Positions 20,247 through 46,864 of a DNA stretch of 64,000 bases are shown here, in pieces. The first letter of the stretch is position 1, and every line of letters begins with the position of its first letter. The translations under genes were made by a program, and so were the position numbers. This DNA is from an alpha proteobacterium HIMB114 (GTDB lineage Bacteria > Pseudomonadota > Alphaproteobacteria > Pelagibacterales > Pelagibacteraceae). Location: positions 868,001-932,000 of the forward strand of contig ADAC02000001.1 in NCBI GenBank assembly GCA_000163555.2, written 5' to 3'. The notes beneath the pieces are model-generated. The model searched no databases. It saw nothing but the letters and a program-made list of their open reading frames with translations, and was not told the origin of the DNA.

Positions 20247-21092
20247 TTAAAAAAGTTTAATAACAACACAGCCGCATAAAATCAATAAAGCTGAAAAAAA
20301 AGCTAGATAACCACCTTTTTCTTTAAGTACAATTAAACCATATAAAGAAGCAAATAGAATACTTACTTCTCTTAGAGCAGCAACTACTGCAACTTTTCCA
20401 ACTGTAAATCCATATACTGCAGGAAAATAAGAATAAACACTACAAGCTGCAGCAATTGTAATCTTTTTGAAATTATTTCTAAAAAATTTAAAGGTTATTC
20501 TATTTTTTTTAAACAAAAATAAAGATATTGCGTTAAATAAAAAACCATCTAATGCAAAATAATAGAGCAAATAAATAAGTGCATTAGACAATCTTGCTCC
20601 TTTTGCGTCTATAATAGAATAAGATACAATAATTGATGCTACAATTAAGCTGTACAACAATCCTCTAAAATTAATTTTTTTAAATTTTCCCTCAGCAAAA
20701 ACTAATAATAAAATGCCTATAGAAATTACAATTACAGAAATTTGATTCAAAAAAGATAGGTCATCTTTAAAAAAAATTGGTGTTAGAATTAATATAATTA
20801 AAGACGGCAAACCTCTTGCAATTGGATACCCGTAAGAAATGCCTGCGTAATCATATACTTTGCAAAGAAAGATTTTATAAAAAACATGAATAATCATTGT
20901 CGCAATAAAGAATGGCCAGGCTTCTTTTGGTAATGGCTCAAAAAAAAACAAAAAAGGAAATAAAATTAAACTTCCTAATAGGGTAAAGGCTCTTGTAAAT
21001 TCAATTTTGTTGCTAGATTGTTTTAATAATATATTCCAAACTACATGACCAATAGCTCCAGATAAGATAAACAAAAACAGTAGGTTGTCCAA
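20247..21092 (-). CDS. EamA/DMT-superfamily transporter in the phosphonate catabolic operon
   Basis: A 281-residue membrane protein with about nine or ten hydrophobic segments in two halves, of the drug/metabolite transporter superfamily. PIARGLPSLIILILTP near residue 90 and the C-terminal GKVAVVAALREVSILFASLYGLIVLKEK near residue 229 are typical EamA segments. The frame starts with TTG one base after the alcohol dehydrogenase stop, so it belongs to the phnA-phnY-dehydrogenase operon. By context it could move a phosphonate substrate or a product such as acetate; that is inference only. Confidence 0.8.
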   Translation of the reverse strand: MDNLLFLFILSGAIGHVVWNILLKQSSNKIEFTRAFTLLGSLILFPFLFFFEPLPKEAWPFFIATMIIHVFYKIFLCKVYDYAGISYGYPIARGLPSLIILILTPIFFKDDLSFLNQISVIVISIGILLLVFAEGKFKKINFRGLLYSLIVASIIVSYSIIDAKGARLSNALIYLLYYFALDGFLFNAISLFLFKKNRITFKFFRNNFKKITIAAACSVYSYFPAVYGFTVGKVAVVAALREVSILFASLYGLIVLKEKGGYLAFFSALLILCGCVVIKLF

Positions 21093-21093
21093 A

Positions 21094-22209
21094 TTAGTAT
21101 CCTAGAGATTCTTGGGCTTGCAATACTCTTTTATAATTTCCAATAAAATTTTTGCCTCGTTCTCCAGAAAATGCTTCCTTAACTATCAAATCCCAGTCAT
21201 TTGCATTACCTATGTAATCTTTAAAATTTGTTGAAACATTAATTTTAGTAAAAAATTCCTTTAATTTATCAGGAGCATCATCAAAATCTGAAAATAACGC
21301 TTTAAAATTCTTATCACAAACCACATCTAATCCTTGAACTGATTTAAGTATAATAGGTAACGTAAATGAACAAGCAATCCCATGTGGGATTTTATATTTC
21401 AGTGTAATTGGATAAGAAATAGAGTGAGATATTGCTGTTTTTGTATTTGAGAATGCTAAGCCTGCATACATCGATGCTTTCATAATCTGTTCTCTTAATT
21501 GGATATTTTCTAGATCATTTATTAAATCAGGAAGATTGCTCATGATAATTTTTATAGCATTGATTGCATGAACATTTGAGACTGGATTAGAATTTATATT
21601 CCATATACTTTCAAATGCATGAGACATTGCATCTAATGAAGTTTCAATTGTGATTTTTTTCGGTAAGGACAAAGTTAAGTTGCTGTCAAATAAAGATAAT
21701 TTTGAGTACAAACTAGGATGAATCAATGAGTGTTTTCTTTGATTTTTTTCATCCCAAATTGTAGCCCAGCATGTTAGCTCGCTACCCGTTCCAGCCGTCG
21801 TTGGAATAGAGATTAAATCAACATCTGTTGGCTCAATAAAATCTTGTTTCTTTTCTAGATAGTTAACTGTTGTAGCAAAGTCACCTTTTCCTAAAACTAT
21901 AAATTTTGCAGTATCTATGACTGAACCACCACCTAAAGCTATAACTTTTTTGATTGATTTACATTTTTGACTATATTCTTGTGAAATAGTTTTAAGATTT
22001 TCATAATCAGGATTAGGTAAAATATTATTTATAACAAGTTTTGGCTCGCCAATAGCCTTTTTTATTTTGTCGCAATATTTTTTAAATACATCATCACTGT
22101 AAGTAAAAATACAGTAATCACCTTTGCCTATTAAATCACATAATTTTTCAGGATTATCTAATAAACCCGTTTGAAAAAAAATATTTGATGGATTGTGATA
22201 TTTAAACAT
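21094..22209 (-). CDS. Iron-type alcohol dehydrogenase, putative 2-hydroxyethylphosphonate/phosphonoacetaldehyde oxidoreductase
   Basis: Group III metal-dependent alcohol dehydrogenase, 371 residues from the ATG at 22209, which overlaps the phnY stop by one base (TAATG); a GTG three codons earlier is less likely. The NAD(P) motif ALGGGSVIDTAKF lies near residue 90 and TTAGTGSELTCWATIWD near residue 137. Metal ligands are visible in DAMSHAFE, AISHSISYP and IPHGIAC, giving the Asp-His-His-His set. The family includes phosphonoacetaldehyde reductases of phosphonate biosynthesis. Beside PhnY and PhnA, the expected direction is oxidation of 2-hydroxyethylphosphonate to phosphonoacetaldehyde. Family is certain; the substrate is inferred from neighbours. 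Confidence 0.82.
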   Translation of the reverse strand: MFKYHNPSNIFFQTGLLDNPEKLCDLIGKGDYCIFTYSDDVFKKYCDKIKKAIGEPKLVINNILPNPDYENLKTISQEYSQKCKSIKKVIALGGGSVIDTAKFIVLGKGDFATTVNYLEKKQDFIEPTDVDLISIPTTAGTGSELTCWATIWDEKNQRKHSLIHPSLYSKLSLFDSNLTLSLPKKITIETSLDAMSHAFESIWNINSNPVSNVHAINAIKIIMSNLPDLINDLENIQLREQIMKASMYAGLAFSNTKTAISHSISYPITLKYKIPHGIACSFTLPIILKSVQGLDVVCDKNFKALFSDFDDAPDKLKEFFTKINVSTNFKDYIGNANDWDLIVKEAFSGERGKNFIGNYKRVLQAQESLGY

Positions 22210-23651
22210 TAATTCCACTTCATATTAATATTCTTGAGTCTAGCGTAACCTTTCATCTCATCAAAACATTCCTCGACACCAATGCCGCTCAATTTCCAAC
22301 CTCCATAAGGTGCTCCGGAGTACCTTCCAGAAGTATTGACCCAAACATAACCAACCTCAACTTCTTCTGATGTTTTCATAGCATTTGACAACGACTCTGT
22401 GACAATCATAGTTGTTAAACCATACTGTGTTGAGTTGGCTATTTTGATCATCTCATCATGATCTTCCCAATCTATAACTGATATAACTGGACCGAAGATT
22501 TCTTCTTTGGCAATTTTCATATTTGGCTTTACGTCGCAAAAAATAGTTGGATTTACAAAAAAACCTTCTTTAAGATCATTTGAAAGGTTTTGGTCTCCAC
22601 CTAAAAGAAGTTTTGCTCCTTCATCTTTTCCAGATTGAATATAAGCCATAACGCTATCAAACTGTTTTTTTGATACAATTGGACCAATTTCGTTTTCTTC
22701 ATGATACGGTAATCCGATTGGAATAGTTTTTGCTTTTTCAACTAATGATTTGAGAAACTTATCTTTAACTTTTTTGTGAACTAAAACTCTCGACGTTGAG
22801 CTACAAGACTGACCTTGACGACTTAAATTCATACCTTTAATCGCTAAATTTGCAGCAAAATCAGGGTCTGCATCATCAAAAACTATAATTGGATTTTTGC
22901 CACCAAGTTCTAGAGTAACATTTTTAAGTTGGGGTGCTGCTGTTTTAGCAATAGCAATTCCAGTATTAACTGAGCCTATAACTGCAATTCTTTTAATGTC
23001 TGGATGCTCAACCAAAAATTTTCCATTTTCTGGACCACCAGTAACAACATTTATTAAACCCTTTGGAAATAAATCTTCTAATAATTCACAAAATCTTAAA
23101 GACGAAATTGGCGCTTGTTCAGAATTTTTAATTATCAACGAATTACCCATTAATAGTGGAGCGGCAATTTTCTCTACACAAAACCTAAATGGATGATTGA
23201 AAGGATTAATCTTTAAAACTACGCCGTAGGGCTGATAACGTGTGAAATTCAAATGATTTTTTTCCATTGAAAATGTCTCACCTTTAACTTCTCTAACCAA
23301 GCCACAGAAATAACGAATATTATTAACTGTTTCTTTAACATCTTTTCTCATTCCAGTTAGAGCATTTCCAGAGTCATATGAGTCAATTAAGGCAAATTCT
23401 TCCTCGTTTTTCTCTATTCTTTTCGCTAATTTTTCTAAAAGGTTTGCTCTTTCAATCAGTGAAGTTTTTTGCCAAACTTTTTGTGCTTGTTTTGCGCTTT
23501 CAACTGCTTTTTCAAGTTCCTTAATATCTGAAATAGGAACATCACTTAATTTTTTATTATTAGATGGGTTAATTATATCGTATCTATTTTTATTATTATG
23601 CCACTCTCCTGCAACATAAGTTCCTTTAACTTCGAAAATTTTATCATCCAT
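22209..23651 (-). CDS. phnY: Phosphonoacetaldehyde dehydrogenase
   Basis: NAD(P)-dependent aldehyde dehydrogenase, 480 residues, predicted to oxidise phosphonoacetaldehyde to phosphonoacetate. ALDH landmarks are INPFNHPF near residue 140, the cofactor loop IGSVNTGIAIAKTA near residue 224, the general-base Glu in LELGGKNP near residue 248 and the catalytic Cys in GQSCSSTSRV near residue 282. The C-terminus reads GVEECFDEMKGYARLKNINMKW. It overlaps phnA by 8 bases and the alcohol dehydrogenase by one base. The position directly after phnA is the main ground for the specific substrate. A close paralogue lies at 45428-46864. Confidence 0.86.
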   Translation of the reverse strand: MDDKIFEVKGTYVAGEWHNNKNRYDIINPSNNKKLSDVPISDIKELEKAVESAKQAQKVWQKTSLIERANLLEKLAKRIEKNEEEFALIDSYDSGNALTGMRKDVKETVNNIRYFCGLVREVKGETFSMEKNHLNFTRYQPYGVVLKINPFNHPFRFCVEKIAAPLLMGNSLIIKNSEQAPISSLRFCELLEDLFPKGLINVVTGGPENGKFLVEHPDIKRIAVIGSVNTGIAIAKTAAPQLKNVTLELGGKNPIIVFDDADPDFAANLAIKGMNLSRQGQSCSSTSRVLVHKKVKDKFLKSLVEKAKTIPIGLPYHEENEIGPIVSKKQFDSVMAYIQSGKDEGAKLLLGGDQNLSNDLKEGFFVNPTIFCDVKPNMKIAKEEIFGPVISVIDWEDHDEMIKIANSTQYGLTTMIVTESLSNAMKTSEEVEVGYVWVNTSGRYSGAPYGGWKLSGIGVEECFDEMKGYARLKNINMKWN

Positions 23652-24876
23652 AATTTAATGCCAAATCAAAAATGTCAAAATTTCTTAGAACCCCTTTGGA
23701 CTTGTAACTTTGATCAATTTTTTTTGATAAAAATATTGGGATATCACTTTCGCCCATGCCACCATGGGTACGAAGTGGTTCTTTCAGTTTTGTTAAATCA
23801 TGATCAGATTCTTTTTTACCAATTGCAAAGTTTTCATCTGAGGTAACAACTATATCGCCAATACGATCTTTGGGTTGATTGAATTTTTTAACACTTTCAT
23901 CATTGGATAATACAATATCAATACCTTTGATAGTTTTAATATATTTAACGACCTCAGATATTTTGTTTTTATCCTCTAAATAAATAGTCACAAAAGAACC
24001 AAATGAACCATGATGAACTACATAAGGATCTGTGATGGTGCAAATTACATTACAAAAATCTTTTCCAAATTTTTTATCTAATTCATCTTGCAAATAAATT
24101 AAATTTAACGATCCATCTTCATTAGTTTTACCTTTCATTCCGTGATCTGCCGTAAAACAAATTTCACACCCTTGGTCATATAGTTTTTGTAAATACCCAT
24201 CAATCATGTGGTAGAAATCATTGGCCATCTTACTTCCTGGAGCGCACTTGTGTTGAATATAGTCTGTGGTTGATAAATAGATTAAATCTAATTTTTGCTT
24301 TTTTACAATCTCTACAGCTGCAGCAAATATAAATTCGGAAAGATCAGAACTATAAACTTCAGGTAAAGGCTTTTTTGTTAACTCTAAGACATTTTCAATT
24401 CTATTATCTTTTAAATTAGCTTGATCTGCTTTTTCAGAAGAAAAACATATTGCTTCTTTCAAATTTTTTCCTAATAATTTTTTTAGTTTATCTTTGGCTG
24501 TTATAACGGCTATTTTTGCACCTGCTTTTTCAAATGCTTCAAAAATAGTAGATGCCCTTAGAAAAGAGTCATCGTTCATCAATGTTTCTTTGCCTAACTC
24601 TGGATCAAAGAAAAAATTACCGCAAATTCCATGTACATCAGGTGTCGTTCCAGTAACGATAGACATATTATTCACATTAGTAAAACTTGGCATAGCACAT
24701 TTGCCAATTTCATAAGTTGACTTTGAAATCATTGATTTCATGAAAGGCATTAAGCCCATTGAAATTGCTGTATCTATATAACCTTTTGGGCCAGGTTCGC
24801 TTCCATCTAAACAAATAACGATTGTTGTTTTAGTAGGCCAACTGTAAGTTTTTCCGTTAACATTTACTGATTTCAT
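23644..24876 (-). CDS. phnA: Phosphonoacetate hydrolase
   Basis: Alkaline-phosphatase-superfamily zinc enzyme that cleaves the C-P bond of phosphonoacetate to acetate and phosphate. The 410-residue frame carries the complete metal and nucleophile set: CLDGSEP (Asp24), the nucleophile Thr in AMPSFTNVNN near residue 66, TTDYIQH near residue 206, TADHGMK near residue 245 and the C-terminal LRTHGGMGESDIP near residue 370. The start is placed at 24876 because GGAG lies 9 bases upstream; a TTG at 24891 would consume that site. It is the first gene of the leftward operon and divergent from a LysR gene, like substrate-induced phnA systems known in pseudomonads. Confidence 0.92.
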   Translation of the reverse strand: MKSVNVNGKTYSWPTKTTIVICLDGSEPGPKGYIDTAISMGLMPFMKSMISKSTYEIGKCAMPSFTNVNNMSIVTGTTPDVHGICGNFFFDPELGKETLMNDDSFLRASTIFEAFEKAGAKIAVITAKDKLKKLLGKNLKEAICFSSEKADQANLKDNRIENVLELTKKPLPEVYSSDLSEFIFAAAVEIVKKQKLDLIYLSTTDYIQHKCAPGSKMANDFYHMIDGYLQKLYDQGCEICFTADHGMKGKTNEDGSLNLIYLQDELDKKFGKDFCNVICTITDPYVVHHGSFGSFVTIYLEDKNKISEVVKYIKTIKGIDIVLSNDESVKKFNQPKDRIGDIVVTSDENFAIGKKESDHDLTKLKEPLRTHGGMGESDIPIFLSKKIDQSYKSKGVLRNFDIFDLALNYG

Positions 24877-24930
24877 ACTTAAATACTCCAAATCCTATAT
24901 TACTTTAATTGTTAACTACAACCCATTATA

Positions 24931-24955
24931 TTTTATGTATATCTAGTATATAAAT
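24931..24955. promoter_or_regulatory. Candidate LysR operator between phnA and lysR-type gene
   Basis: The 84 bases between the two divergent starts contain an AT-rich partial dyad around GTATATCTAGTATAT, which is close to a TATA-N5-TATA inverted repeat with LysR-type T-N11-A spacing. LysR regulators usually bind such sites in divergent promoter regions, overlapping their own promoter. The match is weak in an AT-rich background. Confidence 0.3.
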
Positions 24956-24960
24956 TTCTT

Positions 24961-25836
24961 ATGAACTTTACCCAAATCAGAAGTTTTAATGCAGTAGCTG
25001 AGCTTGGAAGCTTTACTGCAGCAGCAAAAAAATTAAATGTATCACAATCAGCAATATCAGAACAAATACGAGAGGCAGAATCAAGATTTAAAATAAAACT
25101 ATTTTTAAGAAAAGCTAATGGAATAAGTCTGACAGAATATGGAAAAAAATTATTTGATATAACGAGCGGTATTAACGATATTCATGAACAGGCAATAAAT
25201 TTACTAGGTTCTGCAAAAAACTTGACTTCAGGAACCTTAAGAATTGGTACTGTTGCACCTGTACATTTGATGAGTCTTGTAAAAAGATTTTCATCAAAAT
25301 ATCCAAAAGTAAATTTATCAATTTTATTTGGAAATTCTGAAATAACTTTAAATAAATTAAAAAAAAAAGAAATTGACATAGGAATTCTTGCAGACATCTC
25401 AGATGAGGATGAGATTTATTCTAAACCACTTGTAAGAGATAAATTAATTGGATTTGTTTCAAAAAAAAATAAGTTAGCAAAAAAAAACTCAGTTAATTTT
25501 TCAGAAATTATAAACGAAACTTTTATAGTTCGTGAAAAAGGCTCGAAAACTCGAGCACTTGTTGAAAAAGAATTATTTCATTTAGGTGTAAAAAAGAAAC
25601 TATTTGAAATTGGAAGCAGAGAAGGGATTTATGAAGCTGTAAAAGAAAACTTAGGTATTGGATTTGTATATAGTAGTGAAAAAGTAGATATCCCTAATAT
25701 AAAATTTATAAATATCAAAAATACAAAGTTCTACGCTACTGAGTATGTATGTTGTCTTAAAAAAAGATATGATTTTAATGTCATCAAAGCCTTTTATGAT
25801 ATCATTCCAAAATTTACTGATTTATCAAAAAGTTAG
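24961..25836 (+). CDS. LysR family transcriptional regulator, probable activator of the phnA operon
   Basis: A 291-residue LysR-type regulator. The winged helix-turn-helix occupies residues 1-60 (FNAVAELGSFTAAAKKLNVSQSAISEQIREAE), followed by a linker helix and a periplasmic-binding-protein-like effector domain from about residue 90 (LRIGTVAPVHLMSLVKRF). It is transcribed divergently from phnA, the classical arrangement for a LysR protein controlling its neighbour. LysR-type PhnR proteins activate phosphonoacetate hydrolase genes in response to substrate and independently of phosphate status. The 3' end overlaps convergent pit by 12 bases. Confidence 0.88.
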   Translation: MNFTQIRSFNAVAELGSFTAAAKKLNVSQSAISEQIREAESRFKIKLFLRKANGISLTEYGKKLFDITSGINDIHEQAINLLGSAKNLTSGTLRIGTVAPVHLMSLVKRFSSKYPKVNLSILFGNSEITLNKLKKKEIDIGILADISDEDEIYSKPLVRDKLIGFVSKKNKLAKKNSVNFSEIINETFIVREKGSKTRALVEKELFHLGVKKKLFEIGSREGIYEAVKENLGIGFVYSSEKVDIPNIKFINIKNTKFYATEYVCCLKKRYDFNVIKAFYDIIPKFTDLSKS

Positions 25837-26832
25837 GGAAATAAAATAACTTAGAATAAAAACTGAACAAGGAATTAAAAACCAAGATACAATTATTTTC
25901 ATTGTATGTGTGGGTTGTACTTCTCTAAATTTATTAAAAGATGCTACACCAATAATTCCTGCGAAAGTAATATGCGATGCTGACAATGGCATAGCAAAAA
26001 TTTCAAAAGGAAGAATAATATTAATTTTTTGAATTAAATAATCTGATGAAAAACTTAATAAGATAATTATTTGTGTTAGTAATATTGCTAGCGCAGAAAC
26101 TGGCTTTATTGCAGAGATTTGTGAACCAACACTCTGAACAATTCGTTGGGAAAAAATTAAAGCTCCTAGTCCAATTAAAAACGATCCAAAAAAATATAAT
26201 TTATTTTCATTAATCAAAACTTGATTGTTAAAAAGATTTATGTCTAAATTCAAATAAGGGGAATAAATTCCAACAATTGAAGCGGTAAGGTTAGATCCTA
26301 ACGCAAAAGCTGCGATACATCCAAAAAAAATTAAGCTTAATCTAATTTGGTAATCGATTTGAAAAACATTAAATTTAAAAAAACTAATTATAAATTGAAT
26401 TAAATAACAAAAAAATATGGATAAAATAAAAGCAATTATCGGAGTAGCTAACCAAAAGTAAATTAATTTAAAAAATAAATTGTTATCAAAGCTAAAGCCT
26501 TTGGCTAATGCAAATCCAAATAAAGAAAAAATAATTGATTGTGAAATCGAGCTTGGTATTTTTAGTTTTAAAGAAATTAACGTTACTAATATTACAGGAA
26601 CTAATACTAAATAAACTTCACTAAAAAGTGGATAATTATTCAATAAATTTTGATAAACTCCTGAAGGATATTTAGCGTTAATTAGTGCTCCAATAATTAT
26701 AAAAATAAAGAAGAATATAATTGCAAAATTAAATTTTAGCATTTTAGATCCAACTGCAGACCCAAAAACATTAGCTGCATCATTAGTTCCAACAATGATA
26801 GCCAGTATGGCTATTAGTAATATTTCAAACAT
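25825..26832 (-). CDS. pit: Inorganic phosphate transporter, PiT family
   Basis: A 335-residue PiT-family permease with about ten membrane segments. Both signature repeats are present: AIIVGTNDAANVFGSAVGSKML at residues 11-32 and, in the C-terminal half, FAMPLSASHITFAGIIGVASFNKFREV. PiT proteins carry phosphate (as metal phosphate) with H+ or Na+. It follows the DUF47 gene by 2 bases in the phnD-phnC-phnE-phnE operon, not in the pst operon, suggesting a role together with phosphonate uptake or in balancing phosphate released from phosphonates. Confidence 0.9.
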   Translation of the reverse strand: MFEILLIAILAIIVGTNDAANVFGSAVGSKMLKFNFAIIFFFIFIIIGALINAKYPSGVYQNLLNNYPLFSEVYLVLVPVILVTLISLKLKIPSSISQSIIFSLFGFALAKGFSFDNNLFFKLIYFWLATPIIAFILSIFFCYLIQFIISFFKFNVFQIDYQIRLSLIFFGCIAAFALGSNLTASIVGIYSPYLNLDINLFNNQVLINENKLYFFGSFLIGLGALIFSQRIVQSVGSQISAIKPVSALAILLTQIIILLSFSSDYLIQKINIILPFEIFAMPLSASHITFAGIIGVASFNKFREVQPTHTMKIIVSWFLIPCSVFILSYFISLTF

Positions 26833-26834
26833 AA

Positions 26835-27443
26835 TTAATTTTTAGAAGATGATATAATTAGACGATCCGCAACATCTTCTGATAAATTTGCGACTTCATC
26901 CATAATTTCAACGAAATATCGCAAATGAACTTTCGTGGCTAACCCATTTTTTTCATTAGAAAAAATATTCTTTTTTAAAACTGTGCTGACTTTATCTGCC
27001 TTACTTTCTATTTTTGAAACTTGTAAACATTTTTCAATTGTTACTTTTTTATCAATAAAAAAGTTTCTAGAACCTTCTATCAATAAAGCTATACATTCTG
27101 AGGCATAATCACATAACTGTAAAAAATTTTTACTGAGTTCACTCTCAATGACTGGTTTTTCTGTATTAAAACTATGGGCATTGGCCTGAATTTGTCCTGG
27201 GATTTTATCTAAATTTTCCAACATGCCTAACACATCACCACGCATATCGGGTATTAGTGTTTCTTGGTATATCTTTCTTTCTACATCTCTTCTAATTTTA
27301 TCACATTGGCTTTCAAGATCAGAAATTTGGTTGGTAATATTTTCAACTTCATCGAAATTTTTTTTAAAATAACTTTCTAATAATTTTTTAAATAAATTAT
27401 TGATATTAAGAATATTATCTAAGAAATTATTTATTGAGTCCAT
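26835..27443 (-). CDS. DUF47/PhoU-like accessory protein of the PiT transporter
   Basis: A 202-residue all-helical DUF47 protein, related to PhoU and commonly encoded directly upstream of pit genes; it is thought to regulate the permease. The PhoU-like pattern SQCDKIRRDVERKIYQETLIPDMRGDVLGMLENLDKI spans about residues 38-74. The start is taken at 27443 (MDSINNFLDN): it is preceded by AAGGAG and lies 26 bases after the phnE stop. A GTG at 27470 would start within that stop codon. Confidence 0.85.
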   Translation of the reverse strand: MDSINNFLDNILNINNLFKKLLESYFKKNFDEVENITNQISDLESQCDKIRRDVERKIYQETLIPDMRGDVLGMLENLDKIPGQIQANAHSFNTEKPVIESELSKNFLQLCDYASECIALLIEGSRNFFIDKKVTIEKCLQVSKIESKADKVSTVLKKNIFSNEKNGLATKVHLRYFVEIMDEVANLSEDVADRLIISSSKN

Positions 27444-27469
27444 CAACTCCTTTTGGTGATTCTTCAACA

Positions 27470-28273
27470 CTACTGGGTTTCCTTATAAATTTTATCTCTC
27501 ATGTAGGCAGATAAAGCCTCTGAGAAAATAACTAAAACAATAATTGAGACAATAATTGCAGAAGTTCTAGCATACTCCAATTGCAAGACATTTCTTTTTA
27601 AATACCAACCCATGCCTCCTGCACCAAAAAAACCAATGATTGTTGATGCTCTAAAACAAACATCCCACGTATAAATTAAAATACCTGTAAATGCTGTCTT
27701 TACTTGAGGCCAAACACCAAAAGCAAAAACCTGCATTTCATTGGCTCCATTAGATCTCATTGTTTCTACAAGTTTCATATCAACATTTTCTAATTCTTCA
27801 GAAAATAGTTTTCCAAAAAATCCAATACAGTACATGGTCAAAGCCATTGTTCCGGCTAACATTCCAAAACCAACTATTGTTACAAATAATATTGTCCAGA
27901 TAGTTTCATGAATAGATCTTGAGAAAATTATAAAAAACTTTCCAATCCAATATCCAATTCTTTTGCTTGGTGTAATATTTGATGCAGCAAAGTAAGCTAA
28001 TATTGATGCTATTATAACTCCAATAACTAAACCAAGATAACCCATTTGGATACTATCTAATATTGATCCTAGATAACCAGGCTCTAATACATATGGAATC
28101 TCAACAGGATAATATCGGTTTGCTATTAAACTTCCAAATCTACCTAAGGCAGAAAAGAATCTTTCAAAATCAATACCAAGATAAAGAAAGCAAAGATAAA
28201 TGACGAAGAAAAATAAACTTACATTAATAAAGTTTCTTGCATTATTTCTTTTATAAATTTCTTTATTATTCAT
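27470..28273 (-). CDS. phnE: Phosphonate ABC transporter permease PhnE (second copy)
   Basis: A 267-residue inner-membrane permease of the PhnE family with an N-terminal membrane segment, then five or six spans and the coupling motif region (ETMRSNGANEMQVFAFGVWPQVKTAFTG near residue 168) that contacts the PhnC ATPase. The RASTIIGFFGAGGMGWYL segment is typical. It forms a heterodimer-type pair with the upstream permease, 3 bases away. Confidence 0.9.
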   Translation of the reverse strand: MNNKEIYKRNNARNFINVSLFFFVIYLCFLYLGIDFERFFSALGRFGSLIANRYYPVEIPYVLEPGYLGSILDSIQMGYLGLVIGVIIASILAYFAASNITPSKRIGYWIGKFFIIFSRSIHETIWTILFVTIVGFGMLAGTMALTMYCIGFFGKLFSEELENVDMKLVETMRSNGANEMQVFAFGVWPQVKTAFTGILIYTWDVCFRASTIIGFFGAGGMGWYLKRNVLQLEYARTSAIIVSIIVLVIFSEALSAYMRDKIYKETQ

Positions 28274-28276
28274 ATT

Positions 28277-29089
28277 TTAAATTATCTTCTTTCTTAAATA
28301 GTGAGATAAAATTTCTCCAATCACAATTAAACCAACAATAAATAAGATCACTGTAGTCACGCCTGGATAATTAGACATGTGCATCTGCCTGAAGAAAGCA
28401 AGTCCTAGTCCGCCTGCTCCAACTAAGCCCATGACAGCTGATCTTCTAATATTAATGTCCCATTCAAAAATAATTGTTCCAATTACAGTAGGTAGTATTT
28501 GAGGTATAATTCCATAATACATTACATCAAACCCTGAACCGCCAGCGGCTTTAATAGCCTCGATTGGTTTTTTATCTGCGCCTTCAATATTTTCTGCAAT
28601 GATTTTTGAAATAAAGCCTACAGATCTAAATGCCAAAGCTAATATACCTGGTAAAGCGCCAAGACCAACCGCACCAACAAATATTAACGCCCAAATAATC
28701 TCGTGAACAGATCGACTAATTGTCATTAACATTCTAGCAAAACCAAAGCTAAGGCTTCCTAATGGTGTAACATTTTTAGCTCCGAGCCAAGCTACCGGTA
28801 ATGATAATAATAAGCCCAACATTGTACCAAGACATGCCATTAAAAATGTTTCAAAAGCTGGAAGTATAAGAAGGGGCATAATCTTTACATCTAAGCCAAT
28901 GAAATAAGACAATTGTTTTAATATTGATGCACCTGAACCAATTCGATGCCAATCAGTATCTAATATAATTATGAAATATACACTAAGAAATATAACAGCA
29001 ATTAACAAAACATAAAAAATTAATTTTTTTAATATTTTGGATGAATTTTGTTTCGAATAATCATCTATAGTTAACTGATATCCGCTCAT
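28277..29089 (-). CDS. phnE: Phosphonate ABC transporter permease PhnE (first copy)
   Basis: A 270-residue permease homologous to the following gene. It has a cytoplasmic N-terminus, membrane segments from about residue 23, and a coupling helix in IEAIKAAGGSGFDVMYYGIIPQILPTVIG near residue 177, followed by RRSAVMGLVGAGGLGL. Two tandem phnE genes are common in phnCDEE phosphonate/phosphite importers. It lies 2 bases after phnC. Confidence 0.91.
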   Translation of the reverse strand: MSGYQLTIDDYSKQNSSKILKKLIFYVLLIAVIFLSVYFIIILDTDWHRIGSGASILKQLSYFIGLDVKIMPLLILPAFETFLMACLGTMLGLLLSLPVAWLGAKNVTPLGSLSFGFARMLMTISRSVHEIIWALIFVGAVGLGALPGILALAFRSVGFISKIIAENIEGADKKPIEAIKAAGGSGFDVMYYGIIPQILPTVIGTIIFEWDINIRRSAVMGLVGAGGLGLAFFRQMHMSNYPGVTTVILFIVGLIVIGEILSHYLRKKII

Positions 29090-29091
29090 TT

Positions 29092-29850
29092 TTAAAGAAC
29101 CTCGAATTTATATAGATCCTGTAAAACATCATTAGTTAATTTTTCAGTAACATCATCAAATTTCTTTTTACCATCTTGTAAACCTAAAATTTTATTTGCA
29201 AATTGTTTTGCAAGTTCAATATTATGAATATTACATAAAACTGGAATTTTTAATTCATCAGCTATTTGTTTTATTAATTCCATCATTTCGACAGCAATTT
29301 TTGGGTCCAAACTCGATGTTGGCTCATCAACTAAAAGCATTTCCGGCTCTTGCATTAAAGCTCTTGCAATACCTACTCTTTGTCTCTGTCCTCCACTCAA
29401 CTGGTCTACTCTTTTATTTGCAAAATCCTTCAAACCTACTTTTTCAATAAATTGAATTGCGCGACCCACATCTTTTTTACTAAACATACGAAACAGGCTA
29501 GAAAAAGTATTCATATAACCTAATCTACCCGTCAAAACGTTGTCTATAACTGACATTCGATCAATCAAATTAAATTCTTGAAAAATCATACCAATTCTTC
29601 TTCTAACGTTTCTCAATTTTTGACCACCAAGGCTTAATAACTGTTCTCCCTTAAAATTTACTTCTCCATTATTTGGATTTGCTAGCTTGTTAATACATCT
29701 AATTAATGATGATTTTCCAGCACCACTTGGTCCAATAATTGCATAAAAATCATTTTGCATAACTTCAAAAGAAATATCAAACAACACTTGGGGTCCACCT
29801 TTGGTGTATGTTAAATTCAAATTTTTAACTTCTAAAACTTTTTCACTCAT
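29092..29850 (-). CDS. phnC: Phosphonate ABC transporter ATP-binding protein
   Basis: Cytoplasmic ATPase of the phosphonate importer, 252 residues. Walker A GPSGAGKSS lies near residue 36, the Q-loop in MIFQEFNLIDR, signature LSGGQRQR near residue 147 and Walker B MLLVDEPTSSLD near residue 168. The start is set at 29850 (MSEKVLEVKN), with GGGAG 9 bases upstream. The upstream in-frame ATG at 29865 touches the base of a 14-bp hairpin and would overlap that ribosome-binding site. Confidence 0.93.
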   Translation of the reverse strand: MSEKVLEVKNLNLTYTKGGPQVLFDISFEVMQNDFYAIIGPSGAGKSSLIRCINKLANPNNGEVNFKGEQLLSLGGQKLRNVRRRIGMIFQEFNLIDRMSVIDNVLTGRLGYMNTFSSLFRMFSKKDVGRAIQFIEKVGLKDFANKRVDQLSGGQRQRVGIARALMQEPEMLLVDEPTSSLDPKIAVEMMELIKQIADELKIPVLCNIHNIELAKQFANKILGLQDGKKKFDDVTEKLTNDVLQDLYKFEVL

Positions 29851-29865
29851 AATATTTTCTCCCAT

Positions 29866-29897
29866 ATCACGCGTTTATAAAATTATAAACGCGTGAT
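29866..29897 (-). repeat. 14-bp perfect hairpin between phnD and phnC
   Basis: ATCACGCGTTTATA (29866-29879) and its exact reverse complement (29884-29897) flank a 4-base loop. It begins 19 bases after the phnD stop and ends 15 bases before the phnC ATG, immediately next to the GGGAG ribosome-binding site. No U tract follows, so it is more likely an RNA-stability or translation-damping element than a terminator. Confidence 0.85.
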
Positions 29898-29916
29898 TAA
29901 TTAACTTTTCAGGGAA

Positions 29917-30822
29917 TTACTTCTTTTTCTTTTTCTTAAACTCAGCTTTAGCTTTAGCTAAAGTTCTAATCACATCATAGTCTTTGTCAGACATTGCAAC
30001 AAATTTTGATGATTTTAGGTTGTCTAAGAATTTTTTAGCTCCTGGATCATTTCCAAGTTCTAAGAAAGTTGATCTGATCGCTTTTTTTATAGGATCGCAT
30101 AATTTTCCACTATAGACAAAAGGGTCTTGTGGAACTGGAGGTGATCTCCATAAAATATTAAAGTCAGATAACTTTACTTTACCTTTAGATACAACGTTAT
30201 CAAATCGGTGACTAGCTACAAAGCCAGCATCAATTTTTCCACTATGTACTGCTAAAGTTGTTAAGTCATGACCACCTGTGTAGACAATTCTTTTCCAGAA
30301 CTTATCTGCATCAGTATTCATACTTGGAGCCCATACGACTCTTGGTATTAAGTCACCAGATGTACTTCCAGGGTCAGCATGCCCAACTGTTGCACCTTTT
30401 AAAGATTTTTGAGTTGTAAATTTAGACCCTTTCTTTGAAATCAATACTGATTCATATCCAGGACCTTCTTTTTGCATGTACCCTTTTTTCTTTGCATAAG
30501 TTGCAAACACTTCAATTGACTTATCTTTCTTTTTCGCAGTGATGTATCCGTAAGGACCTAATACTGCTACGTCAACGAAGCCTCCGATTAACGCTTCAGC
30601 AACTGATGCGTATGAAGTAGGCATATAGAACTCGATTTTCTTTCCAGTATTTGCTTTTAATTTCTTTAATACTGGTCTGTATAGATCAAGCTCAAATGAT
30701 GACTCTTCGGTAGGTATTATTGAAAACCTTAATTGCTTAGGATCTTTACATTTCGAATATGCAAAGTTAGTTCCTAGCAAAAGGGCTGTAAATAATACCA
30801 GTGTCTTTTTTATTAACTGCAT
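29917..30822 (-). CDS. phnD: Phosphonate/phosphite/phosphate ABC transporter substrate-binding protein
   Basis: Periplasmic binding protein, 301 residues, with a signal peptide at residues 1-23 (MQLIKKTLVLFTALLLGTNFAYS). PhnD family features include LRFSIIPTEESSFELDLYRPVLKKL near residue 31, VAVLGPYGYITAKK near residue 78, VGHADPGSTSGDLIPR near residue 146 and IDAGFVASHRFD near residue 197. The C-terminus is Lys-rich. A strong GGGGGAG ribosome-binding site precedes the ATG. It heads the phnD-phnC-phnE-phnE-DUF47-pit operon. Phosphonate as ligand is inferred from family and from the neighbouring phnA operon. Confidence 0.92.
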   Translation of the reverse strand: MQLIKKTLVLFTALLLGTNFAYSKCKDPKQLRFSIIPTEESSFELDLYRPVLKKLKANTGKKIEFYMPTSYASVAEALIGGFVDVAVLGPYGYITAKKKDKSIEVFATYAKKKGYMQKEGPGYESVLISKKGSKFTTQKSLKGATVGHADPGSTSGDLIPRVVWAPSMNTDADKFWKRIVYTGGHDLTTLAVHSGKIDAGFVASHRFDNVVSKGKVKLSDFNILWRSPPVPQDPFVYSGKLCDPIKKAIRSTFLELGNDPGAKKFLDNLKSSKFVAMSDKDYDVIRTLAKAKAEFKKKKKK

Positions 30823-31792: not shown

Positions 31793-32209
31793 ATGAAAAA
31801 AGTATTATTTCTTTGTACAGGAAACTCGGTACGATCTATAATATCAGAGTGTCTATTAAATCAATTAGGTCATAATAACTTTCAAGCATACAGTGCAGGG
31901 TCAAAACCAACAGGTAAAGTAAACCCCTATACAATCAAAGTTTTAGAAAAAAATAATATTAATTATAAAAATACTTTAAGTAAAAGTTGGGATACTTTCA
32001 TAGATACTAAATTTGATACTGTTGTTACGGTTTGTAATCGTGCAGCAAATGAAACATGCCCTGTTTATCCTGGATCGCCAAAAAAATTGCATTGGGAATT
32101 GGAAGACCCTGCTGCTTTTAATGGAAATGATGAAGAAAAATTAAACGAATTTCAAAGAATATTTGATCAAATTCATGAACGTATTAAAAAGGAATTCATA
32201 GATCAATGA
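31793..32209 (+). CDS. arsC: Arsenate reductase, thioredoxin-coupled low-molecular-weight phosphatase type
   Basis: Reduces arsenate to arsenite in the cytoplasm; 138 residues. The P-loop CTGNSVRS (Cys8 to Arg14) and the redox pair Cys81 and Cys89 in CNRAANETCP match thioredoxin-dependent ArsC, with the DP loop in WELEDPAAF near residue 106. A plain protein tyrosine phosphatase would lack the extra cysteines. It overlaps the aquaporin gene as ATGA and sits behind a Pho box, fitting detoxification of arsenate that enters through phosphate transporters. Confidence 0.9.
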   Translation: MKKVLFLCTGNSVRSIISECLLNQLGHNNFQAYSAGSKPTGKVNPYTIKVLEKNNINYKNTLSKSWDTFIDTKFDTVVTVCNRAANETCPVYPGSPKKLHWELEDPAAFNGNDEEKLNEFQRIFDQIHERIKKEFIDQ

Positions 32210-32856
32210 ACAAAAATATAAAAAAATATTTTTTAGAATTTCTAGGAACTTTTATTTTACTACTAACTATTGTTGGCTCAGGAATTATGGGAACTAATCT
32301 TTCAAGTAATGAAAGTGTTACTTTAATTGCTAATGCAATTTCCATTGGTCTAATTCTTTTTGTATTAATTTCATCTTTTAGATCAATATCAGGTGCTCAC
32401 TTTAATCCGGCGGTAAGCATAATGTTAGTACTTATGAAAAAAATGAAATCCGAAGATGCGATTATTTATATTTTTTTACAAATAACTGGTGCTTGCTTAG
32501 GAGTAATTTTTGCAAATTATCTTTTTGGTCTAGATGCGGTCCAACAGGCAGCTAAAGTTCGAGGTGGAGAAAGCATATTTGTATCAGAAATTTTTGCGAC
32601 ATTTGGTTTATTGTTTCTTATACTTTTGAACGGAAGAAAAAGTGACTTAGCCATTGGTTCAATTATTGGTTCATATATTACATCTGCAATTTGGTTTACT
32701 TCCTCTACCTCTTTTGCCAACCCAGCTGTTTCAATAGCTAGAAGTCTTACAGATACTTTTACTGGTATACATTTTTCTAATGTACCAATGTTTATTATCG
32801 CACAATTAATATCGATTGTTTTAGTTCTTATTGTATTTAAAAAAATTTTTAAATAA
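32206..32856 (+). CDS. MIP-family aquaglyceroporin, probable arsenite channel (AqpS-like)
   Basis: A 216-residue channel protein with six membrane segments and two NPA loops: HFNPAVS (Asn67-Pro68-Ala69) and FANPAVSIARS (Asn172-Pro173-Ala174, Arg179). Coupled directly to arsC, it resembles the Sinorhizobium AqpS arrangement, in which arsenate is reduced and arsenite leaves by downhill flow through the channel. Glycerol or water permeation is the alternative if it acts separately. Confidence 0.86.
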   Translation: MNKNIKKYFLEFLGTFILLLTIVGSGIMGTNLSSNESVTLIANAISIGLILFVLISSFRSISGAHFNPAVSIMLVLMKKMKSEDAIIYIFLQITGACLGVIFANYLFGLDAVQQAAKVRGGESIFVSEIFATFGLLFLILLNGRKSDLAIGSIIGSYITSAIWFTSSTSFANPAVSIARSLTDTFTGIHFSNVPMFIIAQLISIVLVLIVFKKIFK

Positions 32857-45427: not shown

Positions 45428-46864
45428 TTACCACTCCATATTAATATTTTTTATTCTTCCATAACTTTTCATCTCATCAAGGCATTCTTCAACACCAATT
45501 CCACTTAATTTCCAACCACCAAAGGGAGCGCCAGGGTATCTTCCTGCAGCATTAACCCATATATAACCAGACTCTATTTGATCAGCTACATTTTTAGCTT
45601 TATCCATATCATTAGTTACAATGTAACCCGTTAAGCCGTATTTCACAGAATTTGCCATTTTAATAACTTCCTCTTCATCATCCCACTCTAAAACTGAAAC
45701 TACTGGACCAAAAATCTCTTCATTTGCAACGGTCATGTTTTGAGTCACATTATTTAAAACTGTTGGTTTAATAAAAAATCCGTCTTTTAATTTTTGATCT
45801 TTGATATCATAACCACCTATATACAGTTCAGCTCCTTCTTGAATTGCACCATCGATGTAAGATTTTATTCTGTCGTATTGTTTTTTTGATACCACAGGCC
45901 CTACATCTGTATCTTCTTCCCAAGGTAAACCTATTTTTAACTTTTCAATTTTTTCTTTGAGAATTTCTAAGTATTTTTTTTTCAAAGATTTGTGAATGAA
46001 AACTCTAGTAGGCGATGTACAAGATTCTCCCTTGGCATCAAAACGCATTCCCTTTAATGTAACCTCAACAATTTTTTCTGGATCAGCATCACTAAATGCA
46101 ATTAAAGGATTTTTTCCACCAAGTTCTAAACTTACTTTTTTTAATAAACTTGATGCAGCCTCATTAATTTTAATTCCAGTCTCAACAGAACAAATGCCTG
46201 CTATCCTTCCAATATCAGGATGTCTGACTAAATAATCTCCAACTTCATGATCTCCACAAATAATACTGACTAACCCGTCAGGCAAAACATCTTTGATAAC
46301 TTCTGAAAATTTTAAAGCAGATAATGGAGCTTGTTCAGAATTTTTTATAATAATGGCGTTACCCATCAAAAGAGGTGCGGCTAATTTTTCTAAACACCAT
46401 CTAAAAGGTCGATTAAATGCATTAATTTTTAATACAATTCCATAAGGTTGGTATTTGGTAATATTTGAATGATTAATTTTATTTGAAAAAGTCTCATCTT
46501 TAATTTCATCTACCTGGTCACAAAAATACTTAACATTTTTTATAGCGGACTTAATATCATTACGAGCAAATCTGATCGTATTACCAACATTATAACAATC
46601 TATTTTTGCATACGTTTCTAAGTTTTTTTCTGCAATATCACAAAGTTGTAATATTTTTTTTGCTCTGTCTTTAATGTTAATTTTAGCCCATTCCTTTTGA
46701 GCTTTTTTTGCACCAGCAATTGCTTGGTCTAAAATATTTTTTGGAACAATTTTTACTTCAGATAATACTTGACCAGTTGCAGGATTAATAATTGATAAAC
46801 TTTTTCCTTCATCAAACCATTTTCCATCAACAAAGGAGCCTTTTAAATTTAATTCGTTTTCCAT
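45428..46864 (-). CDS. Aldehyde dehydrogenase, paralogue of PhnY
   Basis: A 478-residue NAD(P)-dependent aldehyde dehydrogenase with catalytic Cys in GESCTSPTRV near residue 280 and general base Glu in LELGGKNP near residue 246. It aligns over its full length with the PhnY at 22209-23651: both share KINAFNRPF/KINPFNHPF-type segments, NSEQAP, and the closing GVEEC-DEMK and KNINM motifs. The substrate is unknown; phosphonoacetaldehyde or another small aldehyde is possible. It lies between a DUF3047 gene and tRNA-Arg, away from any phosphonate gene. Confidence 0.85.
   Translation of the reverse strand: MENELNLKGSFVDGKWFDEGKSLSIINPATGQVLSEVKIVPKNILDQAIAGAKKAQKEWAKINIKDRAKKILQLCDIAEKNLETYAKIDCYNVGNTIRFARNDIKSAIKNVKYFCDQVDEIKDETFSNKINHSNITKYQPYGIVLKINAFNRPFRWCLEKLAAPLLMGNAIIIKNSEQAPLSALKFSEVIKDVLPDGLVSIICGDHEVGDYLVRHPDIGRIAGICSVETGIKINEAASSLLKKVSLELGGKNPLIAFSDADPEKIVEVTLKGMRFDAKGESCTSPTRVFIHKSLKKKYLEILKEKIEKLKIGLPWEEDTDVGPVVSKKQYDRIKSYIDGAIQEGAELYIGGYDIKDQKLKDGFFIKPTVLNNVTQNMTVANEEIFGPVVSVLEWDDEEEVIKMANSVKYGLTGYIVTNDMDKAKNVADQIESGYIWVNAAGRYPGAPFGGWKLSGIGVEECLDEMKSYGRIKNINMEW

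Follow-up and report, generated by a model that had tools for sequence, protein, structure and literature searches.

A putative hydrolytic route for 2-hydroxyethylphosphonate in a phnA operon of the SAR11-type alphaproteobacterium HIMB114

Introduction

2-Hydroxyethylphosphonate (HEP) and methylphosphonate are among the main phosphonates in the high-molecular-weight fraction of marine organic matter (PMC8931226, PMC9381506). In the literature reviewed, HEP is catabolised by carbon-phosphorus (C-P) lyase with release of ethylene. A hydrolytic system, the PhnW-PhnY-PhnA pathway, is known from Sinorhizobium meliloti (pSymB). Here, we analysed a 64,000-nucleotide stretch of the genome of the alphaproteobacterium HIMB114 (GenBank GCA_000163555.2, contig ADAC02000001.1, positions 868,001 to 932,000; hereafter, the window), in which a cassette at window positions 20247-24891 of the minus strand encodes the phosphonoacetate hydrolase PhnA together with an aldehyde dehydrogenase (ALDH), an iron-type alcohol dehydrogenase (ADH) and a DMT transporter.

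The cassette resembles the S. meliloti pathway in that PhnA (50% identity) is combined with an ALDH, acetate and phosphate being the expected end products, but an ADH stands in place of PhnW, and the ALDH belongs to another subfamily (27% identity to PhnY). Loci of the TIGR03405 family (Phn_Fe-ADH, 'PsrA'), such as that on an annotated Leisingera plasmid (L095; LysR|ADH-phnD-C-E-E-phnA-phnY), have the same gene set with a homologous ADH (44%), PhnC, PhnE, PhnA and LysR. They differ from the SAR11 locus in gene order and ALDH family; moreover, a PiT transporter with a DUF47 protein replaces the Na/Pi cotransporter here, and the window ADH scores under the TIGR03405 cut-off. The PhpC-type phosphonoacetaldehyde (PAA) reductases of pepM-ppd operons belong to the same branch of the iron-ADH superfamily and concern the same compounds, HEP and PAA, whereas their expected direction is opposite, they occupy a separate tree branch with a different C-terminal signature, and neither pepM nor ppd is present here. 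At three loci (L192, L193 and L194), an ALDH of the window type is encoded next to phnA and LysR; an alcohol dehydrogenase accompanies it in the same place, but this is an unrelated, non-homologous zinc-type (MDR) enzyme. The C-P lyase route shares the proposed substrate and the phosphate product; however, it yields ethylene (PMC5649143), whereas the window route, which has no PhnJ, would give acetate.

The TIGR03405 name already ties this ADH family to phosphonates, and its operon association was seen in a survey that came across phpC within operons for catabolism and suggested the reductive direction (PMC9381506). Our search of the open-access literature turned up neither a description nor an experimental test of an HEP dehydrogenase with a catabolic role, and nothing on 'PbfE' or the origin of the name PsrA. 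Such a role has been considered and excluded for an unrelated enzyme (PMC12366243): the PbfF racemase, for which HEP activity was excluded in that study, was rejected here as a relative of the ADH because it is not homologous (pfam02826). What appears to be new is a catabolic HEP-dehydrogenase variant of the hydrolytic pathway. If it exists, cells lacking C-P lyase, members of SAR11 included, could gain phosphorus and acetate from HEP, such use would escape ethylene assays, and finding phnA would no longer point exclusively to 2-aminoethylphosphonate as the compound used. The TIGR03405 ADHs would also gain a testable function, in the direction opposite to the published proposal.

Results and discussion

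Proposed pathway and operon organisation

We propose, with a probability of roughly three in four, that the operon serves the import of HEP, its oxidation and its hydrolysis to acetate and phosphate. PhnCDEE would import HEP, the iron-type ADH would oxidise it to PAA, the ALDH would oxidise PAA to phosphonoacetate, and PhnA would hydrolyse the latter to acetate and phosphate, while LysR probably senses a phosphonate of the pathway. The specificity of the importer, the substrates of both dehydrogenases, the direction of the ADH, the cofactor, the LysR ligand and the role of the DMT protein are matters of prediction. The first-pass annotation had read the same conversion of HEP through PAA and phosphonoacetate to acetate and phosphate, and this reading is supported by the gene absences of the genome and by a LysR|ADH-phnDCE(E)-(phnA-phnY or phnX) module recurrent in proteobacteria.

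The four genes of the cassette are consecutive on the minus strand: phnA (23644-24891), the ALDH gene in the phnY position (22209-23651), the ADH gene (21094-22218) and the gene for a DMT/EamA-type membrane transporter (20247-21092). phnA and the ALDH gene share 8 bp, the ALDH and ADH genes share 10 bp, and a single base pair separates the ADH and DMT genes. A 69-bp A+T-rich gap (24892-24960), taken as a divergent promoter region, lies between phnA and the lysR gene (24961-25836, plus strand). The open reading frames, overlaps and divergent LysR gene given in the first-pass annotation were borne out.

PhnA scored 493.7 bits against the curated equivalog model TIGR02335 (cut-off 407.55) and matched the solved S. 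meliloti enzyme (3szy) over its full length (phmmer, 3e-132). Its naming as phosphonoacetate hydrolase thus held, and the predicted cleavage of phosphonoacetate to acetate and phosphate is well supported.

Importer as part of the gene set

The first-pass interval, 20247-24960, placed these genes correctly but omitted the phnDCEE-DUF47-PiT genes at 25825-30822, which are colinear with the cassette in three relatives. In these SAR11 relatives (L032, L033 and L036), where no LysR gene intervenes, the order phnD-phnC-phnE-phnE-DUF47-PiT-phnA-ALDH-ADH-DMT runs along one strand. Because of this colinearity, the importer and the enzymes can be treated as one gene set, and the phnDCEE importer belongs to the phosphonate system. 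The DMT gene is the final cassette gene in L032, L033, L035 and L036, and a matching cassette is also present in two public Pelagibacteraceae relatives (L104 and L105). A PhnD at least 50% identical to that of the window was encoded near the ADH gene in 30 loci.

Genes absent from the genome

A single contig of 1,237,371 bp contains the window, and the genome is 99.96% complete. Whole-genome searches with family profiles and curated cut-offs gave no PhnW over the cut-off, no match to the C-P lyase protein PhnJ, and a best score of 141 bits for phosphoenolpyruvate mutase (PepM; cut-off 320). The best match of the PhnW search, a class V aminotransferase at 309311, was rejected as PhnW: it is far from the cassette and scored 469 bits against BhcA (aspartate-glyoxylate aminotransferase) versus 146 bits against TIGR03301 (PhnW-AepZ). 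Neither an aminotransferase nor an amine oxidase is encoded in the window cassette itself. A biosynthetic reading of the operon was discarded since no PepM exceeded the cut-off. Since the genome shows no PepM route, C-P lyase or PhnW, any PAA most likely arises from an imported compound.

Thus, the lack of a PhnW-like gene noted in the first-pass annotation extends to the whole genome, and its reading without C-P lyase agrees with the missing PhnJ. Two of its further statements need correction. PhnW is a known entry, as it had said, but not the sole one, since PbfA, PbfC and PbfD also make PAA (PMC12366243). Its contrast with methane release by C-P lyase was mistaken, because HEP yields ethylene by that route and methane comes from methylphosphonate (PMC5649143).

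Family and direction of the alcohol dehydrogenase

TIGR03405 was by far the best-matching family of the window ADH, and in the phylogenetic tree the protein fell within the catabolic group, among phn-linked ADHs, in agreement with its first description as an iron-type ADH. The metal ligands D196, H200, H265 and H279 were invariant in the alignment, FucO included; a residue at what we take to be Asp39 of FucO was not conserved in the comparison. A C-terminal R-G-x-N-F motif occurred in 40/40 rows of the group holding the window ADH. An ADH encoded inside a pepM-ppd-ADH operon (L088), a true biosynthesis context in a genome without PhnA, split from the 40 others with support of 98/96, though on a long branch, and lacked the C-terminal GERGxNF signature. 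ADHs of the GERGxNF type were also found in two marine Gammaproteobacteria of the SUP05 type (L174 and L180), with no phn gene seen nearby; in L180, the gene adjoins urease genes.

PhnX and PhnY both act on PAA (PMC12366243). Since the PhnX and PhnYA partners of the ADH share only this compound, the ADH presumably acts on the PAA pool, which it must either feed or drain. Feeding from HEP is the likeliest, because PhnW and PepM are lacking here and a phosphonate importer lies alongside. HEP is the alcohol that yields PAA on simple oxidation. HEP as the substrate and oxidation as the direction are therefore what we infer for this enzyme.

Co-occurrence and the module in other bacteria

PhnA exceeded its cut-off in 8 of 197 genomes of the family Pelagibacteraceae. 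Six of these eight, and no other genome of the family sample, encoded an ADH homologue with 62% identity or more (Fisher p 4e-10); in the two remaining PhnA genomes, the phnA contig stops short of the ADH position. At the class level, PhnA was present in 9/11 genomes with TIGR03405 versus 43/385 overall (p 6e-8). Both p-values ignore kinship among genomes and are thus optimistic.

In 63 of the 80 nearest public relatives (genome-collection loci), the ADH gene was part of a run of genes on one strand that also held phnDCE, phnA-phnY or phnX (phnDCE in 46, phnA and phnY in 20, phnX in 3); a divergent LysR gene adjoined it in 60 of the 80. PhnW occurred in none of the 80 runs and elsewhere in the locus in four. 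Besides Leisingera, annotated plasmids showed the arrangements LysR|ADH-phnA-phnY (Ensifer), phnA-ADH-phnY (Variovorax), phnD-C-E-ADH-phnX (Comamonas), phnX LysR|ADH (Agrobacterium) and LysR|ADH-phnD-C-E (Vibrio). Chance grouping is ruled out because the cassette is conserved across genera and families. Marinobacterium loci (L121 and L166) carry phnW-phnX plus a separate ADH-phnDCEE set with a second phnX copy, as would be expected if the ADH were an entry to PAA of its own.

Aldehyde dehydrogenase

The first-pass identification of the ALDH as PhnY was not upheld: the protein (Pfam Aldedh) scored 256.4 bits against TIGR03250, whose cut-off is 635.65, and represents a separate ALDH subfamily. 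Its top-scoring models were those of betaine-aldehyde dehydrogenases. The closest homologues outside SAR11 in the class sample (54%) were encoded beside phnA in L192, L193 and L194, each of which consists of LysR|phnA with a zinc-type ADH and the ALDH, one also having phnD-E-C-E. The zinc ADHs matched TIGR03366 'HpnZ_proposed' best (284-310 bits, under the cut-off of 328); no relatives of them were found on plasmids.

The catalytic C283 and the upstream R278 were invariant in the PhnA-linked relatives, and the motif R278-Q-G-Q-S-C283 was common to the ALDHs of SAR11 and of L192-L194. Among five plasmid homologues located away from phnA, four had other residues at this motif, and it was not found in the fifth. 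R278 is a candidate phosphonate contact. In the ALDH tree, the PhnA-linked proteins were not resolved as a single clade. A second ALDH of the window (45428-46864, minus strand), 51% identical to the operon ALDH and encoded away from phosphonate genes, was placed near the SAR11 ALDHs on a long branch. In the SAR11 relative G040 (L035, 7562-8999, minus strand), the ALDH gene seems to be interrupted by a frameshift around codon 55, which appears to reflect a sequencing error or decay.

Alternative explanations

Several points weigh against the proposed pathway. The evidence for it is genomic; the ADH remains under the TIGR03405 cut-off (377.1 versus 423.7 bits); and the ALDH is distant from PhnY. 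At 17 of the 80 loci, the ADH run had no phn gene; several of these 17 lie close to the end of a contig. Seven sampled alphaproteobacteria with larger genomes and the ADH also carry PhnW elsewhere, and since PhnW is present, the ADH could drain PAA there, making its direction less certain in those genomes. A further objection is the proposal that PhnW and PhpC make HEP from 2-aminoethylphosphonate in catabolic operons (PMC9381506), which does not fit the HIMB114 genome because no PhnW is found there. The same proposal speaks for the possibility that the window ADH works like PhpC and forms HEP by reducing PAA, either to drain the latter or to make HEP-containing products, and its homology to the ADH of the L088 biosynthesis operon is in keeping with this. 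However, no PhnW or PepM over the cut-off would supply the PAA, the gene lies among those of a phnA operon with a phosphonate importer next to it, and the biosynthetic ADH branches apart from the catabolic group, whose signature it does not have. We regard a PhpC-like function as quite unlikely. Given that substrates vary among iron-type ADHs and that marine HEP occurs largely as polysaccharide esters (PMC9381506, PMC5649143), the enzyme might oxidise another hydroxy-phosphonate, an HEP ester or a relative, still ending in PAA or phosphonoacetate. This is unlikely as well, for simple alcohol oxidation to the PAA shared by PhnX and PhnYA starts from HEP, and an ester would need prior hydrolysis, for which the cassette has no esterase.

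It is distinctly improbable that 2-aminoethylphosphonate is the real substrate, converted to PAA by some aminotransferase or amine oxidase that has escaped recognition elsewhere in the genome, with the ADH as an accessory. The PbfA-D entry enzymes are known (PMC12366243), a flavin adenine dinucleotide (FAD) oxidoreductase gene adjoins the cassette in one SAR11 relative, and the genome does encode the class V aminotransferase; yet this protein is BhcA-like and remote from the operon, whose genes include no such enzyme. That the ADH and ALDH serve an alcohol unrelated to phosphonates and adjoin phnA by chance is hardly credible: although betaine-aldehyde dehydrogenase models score the ALDH highest and its 51% paralogue lies away from phosphonate genes, the strict co-occurrence with PhnA and the independent recurrence of ADH and ALDH genes beside phnA in other lineages argue otherwise. 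Beyond HIMB114, we lean towards a hydrolytic HEP pathway that is widespread in Proteobacteria and as yet unreported. It would comprise an HEP-specific PhnDCE importer, two ADHs of unrelated kinds (the iron type and an HpnZ-like zinc type), two families of ALDH and cleavage by either PhnYA or PhnX; its SAR11 version would consume HEP and release no ethylene.

Neighbouring genes

For the DMT protein (TIGR03340, phn_DUF6-like, 120 bits, cut-off 288; Pfam EamA) and the LysR regulator (TIGR03339, phn_lysR-like, 255 bits, cut-off 341), the best-scoring families were phosphonate-linked, though both scores were under the cut-off. The importer genes, all on the minus strand, encode a PhnD binding protein (29917-30822; TIGR01098, 193 bits, over the cut-off; TIGR03431, 216 bits, under the cut-off of 261), a PhnC ATPase (29092-29865; an open reading frame with 55-62% identity to PhnC of ADH-linked importers in many relatives) and two PhnE permeases (28277-29089, 237 bits; 27470-28273, 229 bits; both over the TIGR01097 cut-off). 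They are followed by the PhoU_div/DUF47 gene (26835-27470; PF01865), whose product is the partner of the PiT-type phosphate transporter (25825-26832; PHO4).

In G040 (L035, 3345-5477 and 17045-19800, both minus strand), the cassette adjoins genes for an FAD enzyme resembling D-amino-acid dehydrogenase and for a second DMT protein, and a PhnT2-like ABC transporter is encoded beyond phnD; these extra genes possibly open another way in for 2-aminoethylphosphonate, plain or N-methylated. In the window, genes judged by eye to resemble phoR/phoB/phoU and pst lie beyond phnD. In this phosphate-uptake region, an arsenate-reductase-like gene (low-molecular-weight phosphatase fold) is followed by an aquaporin-like gene (31793-32856, plus strand; by eye), a pair that looks like an arsenate detoxification system.

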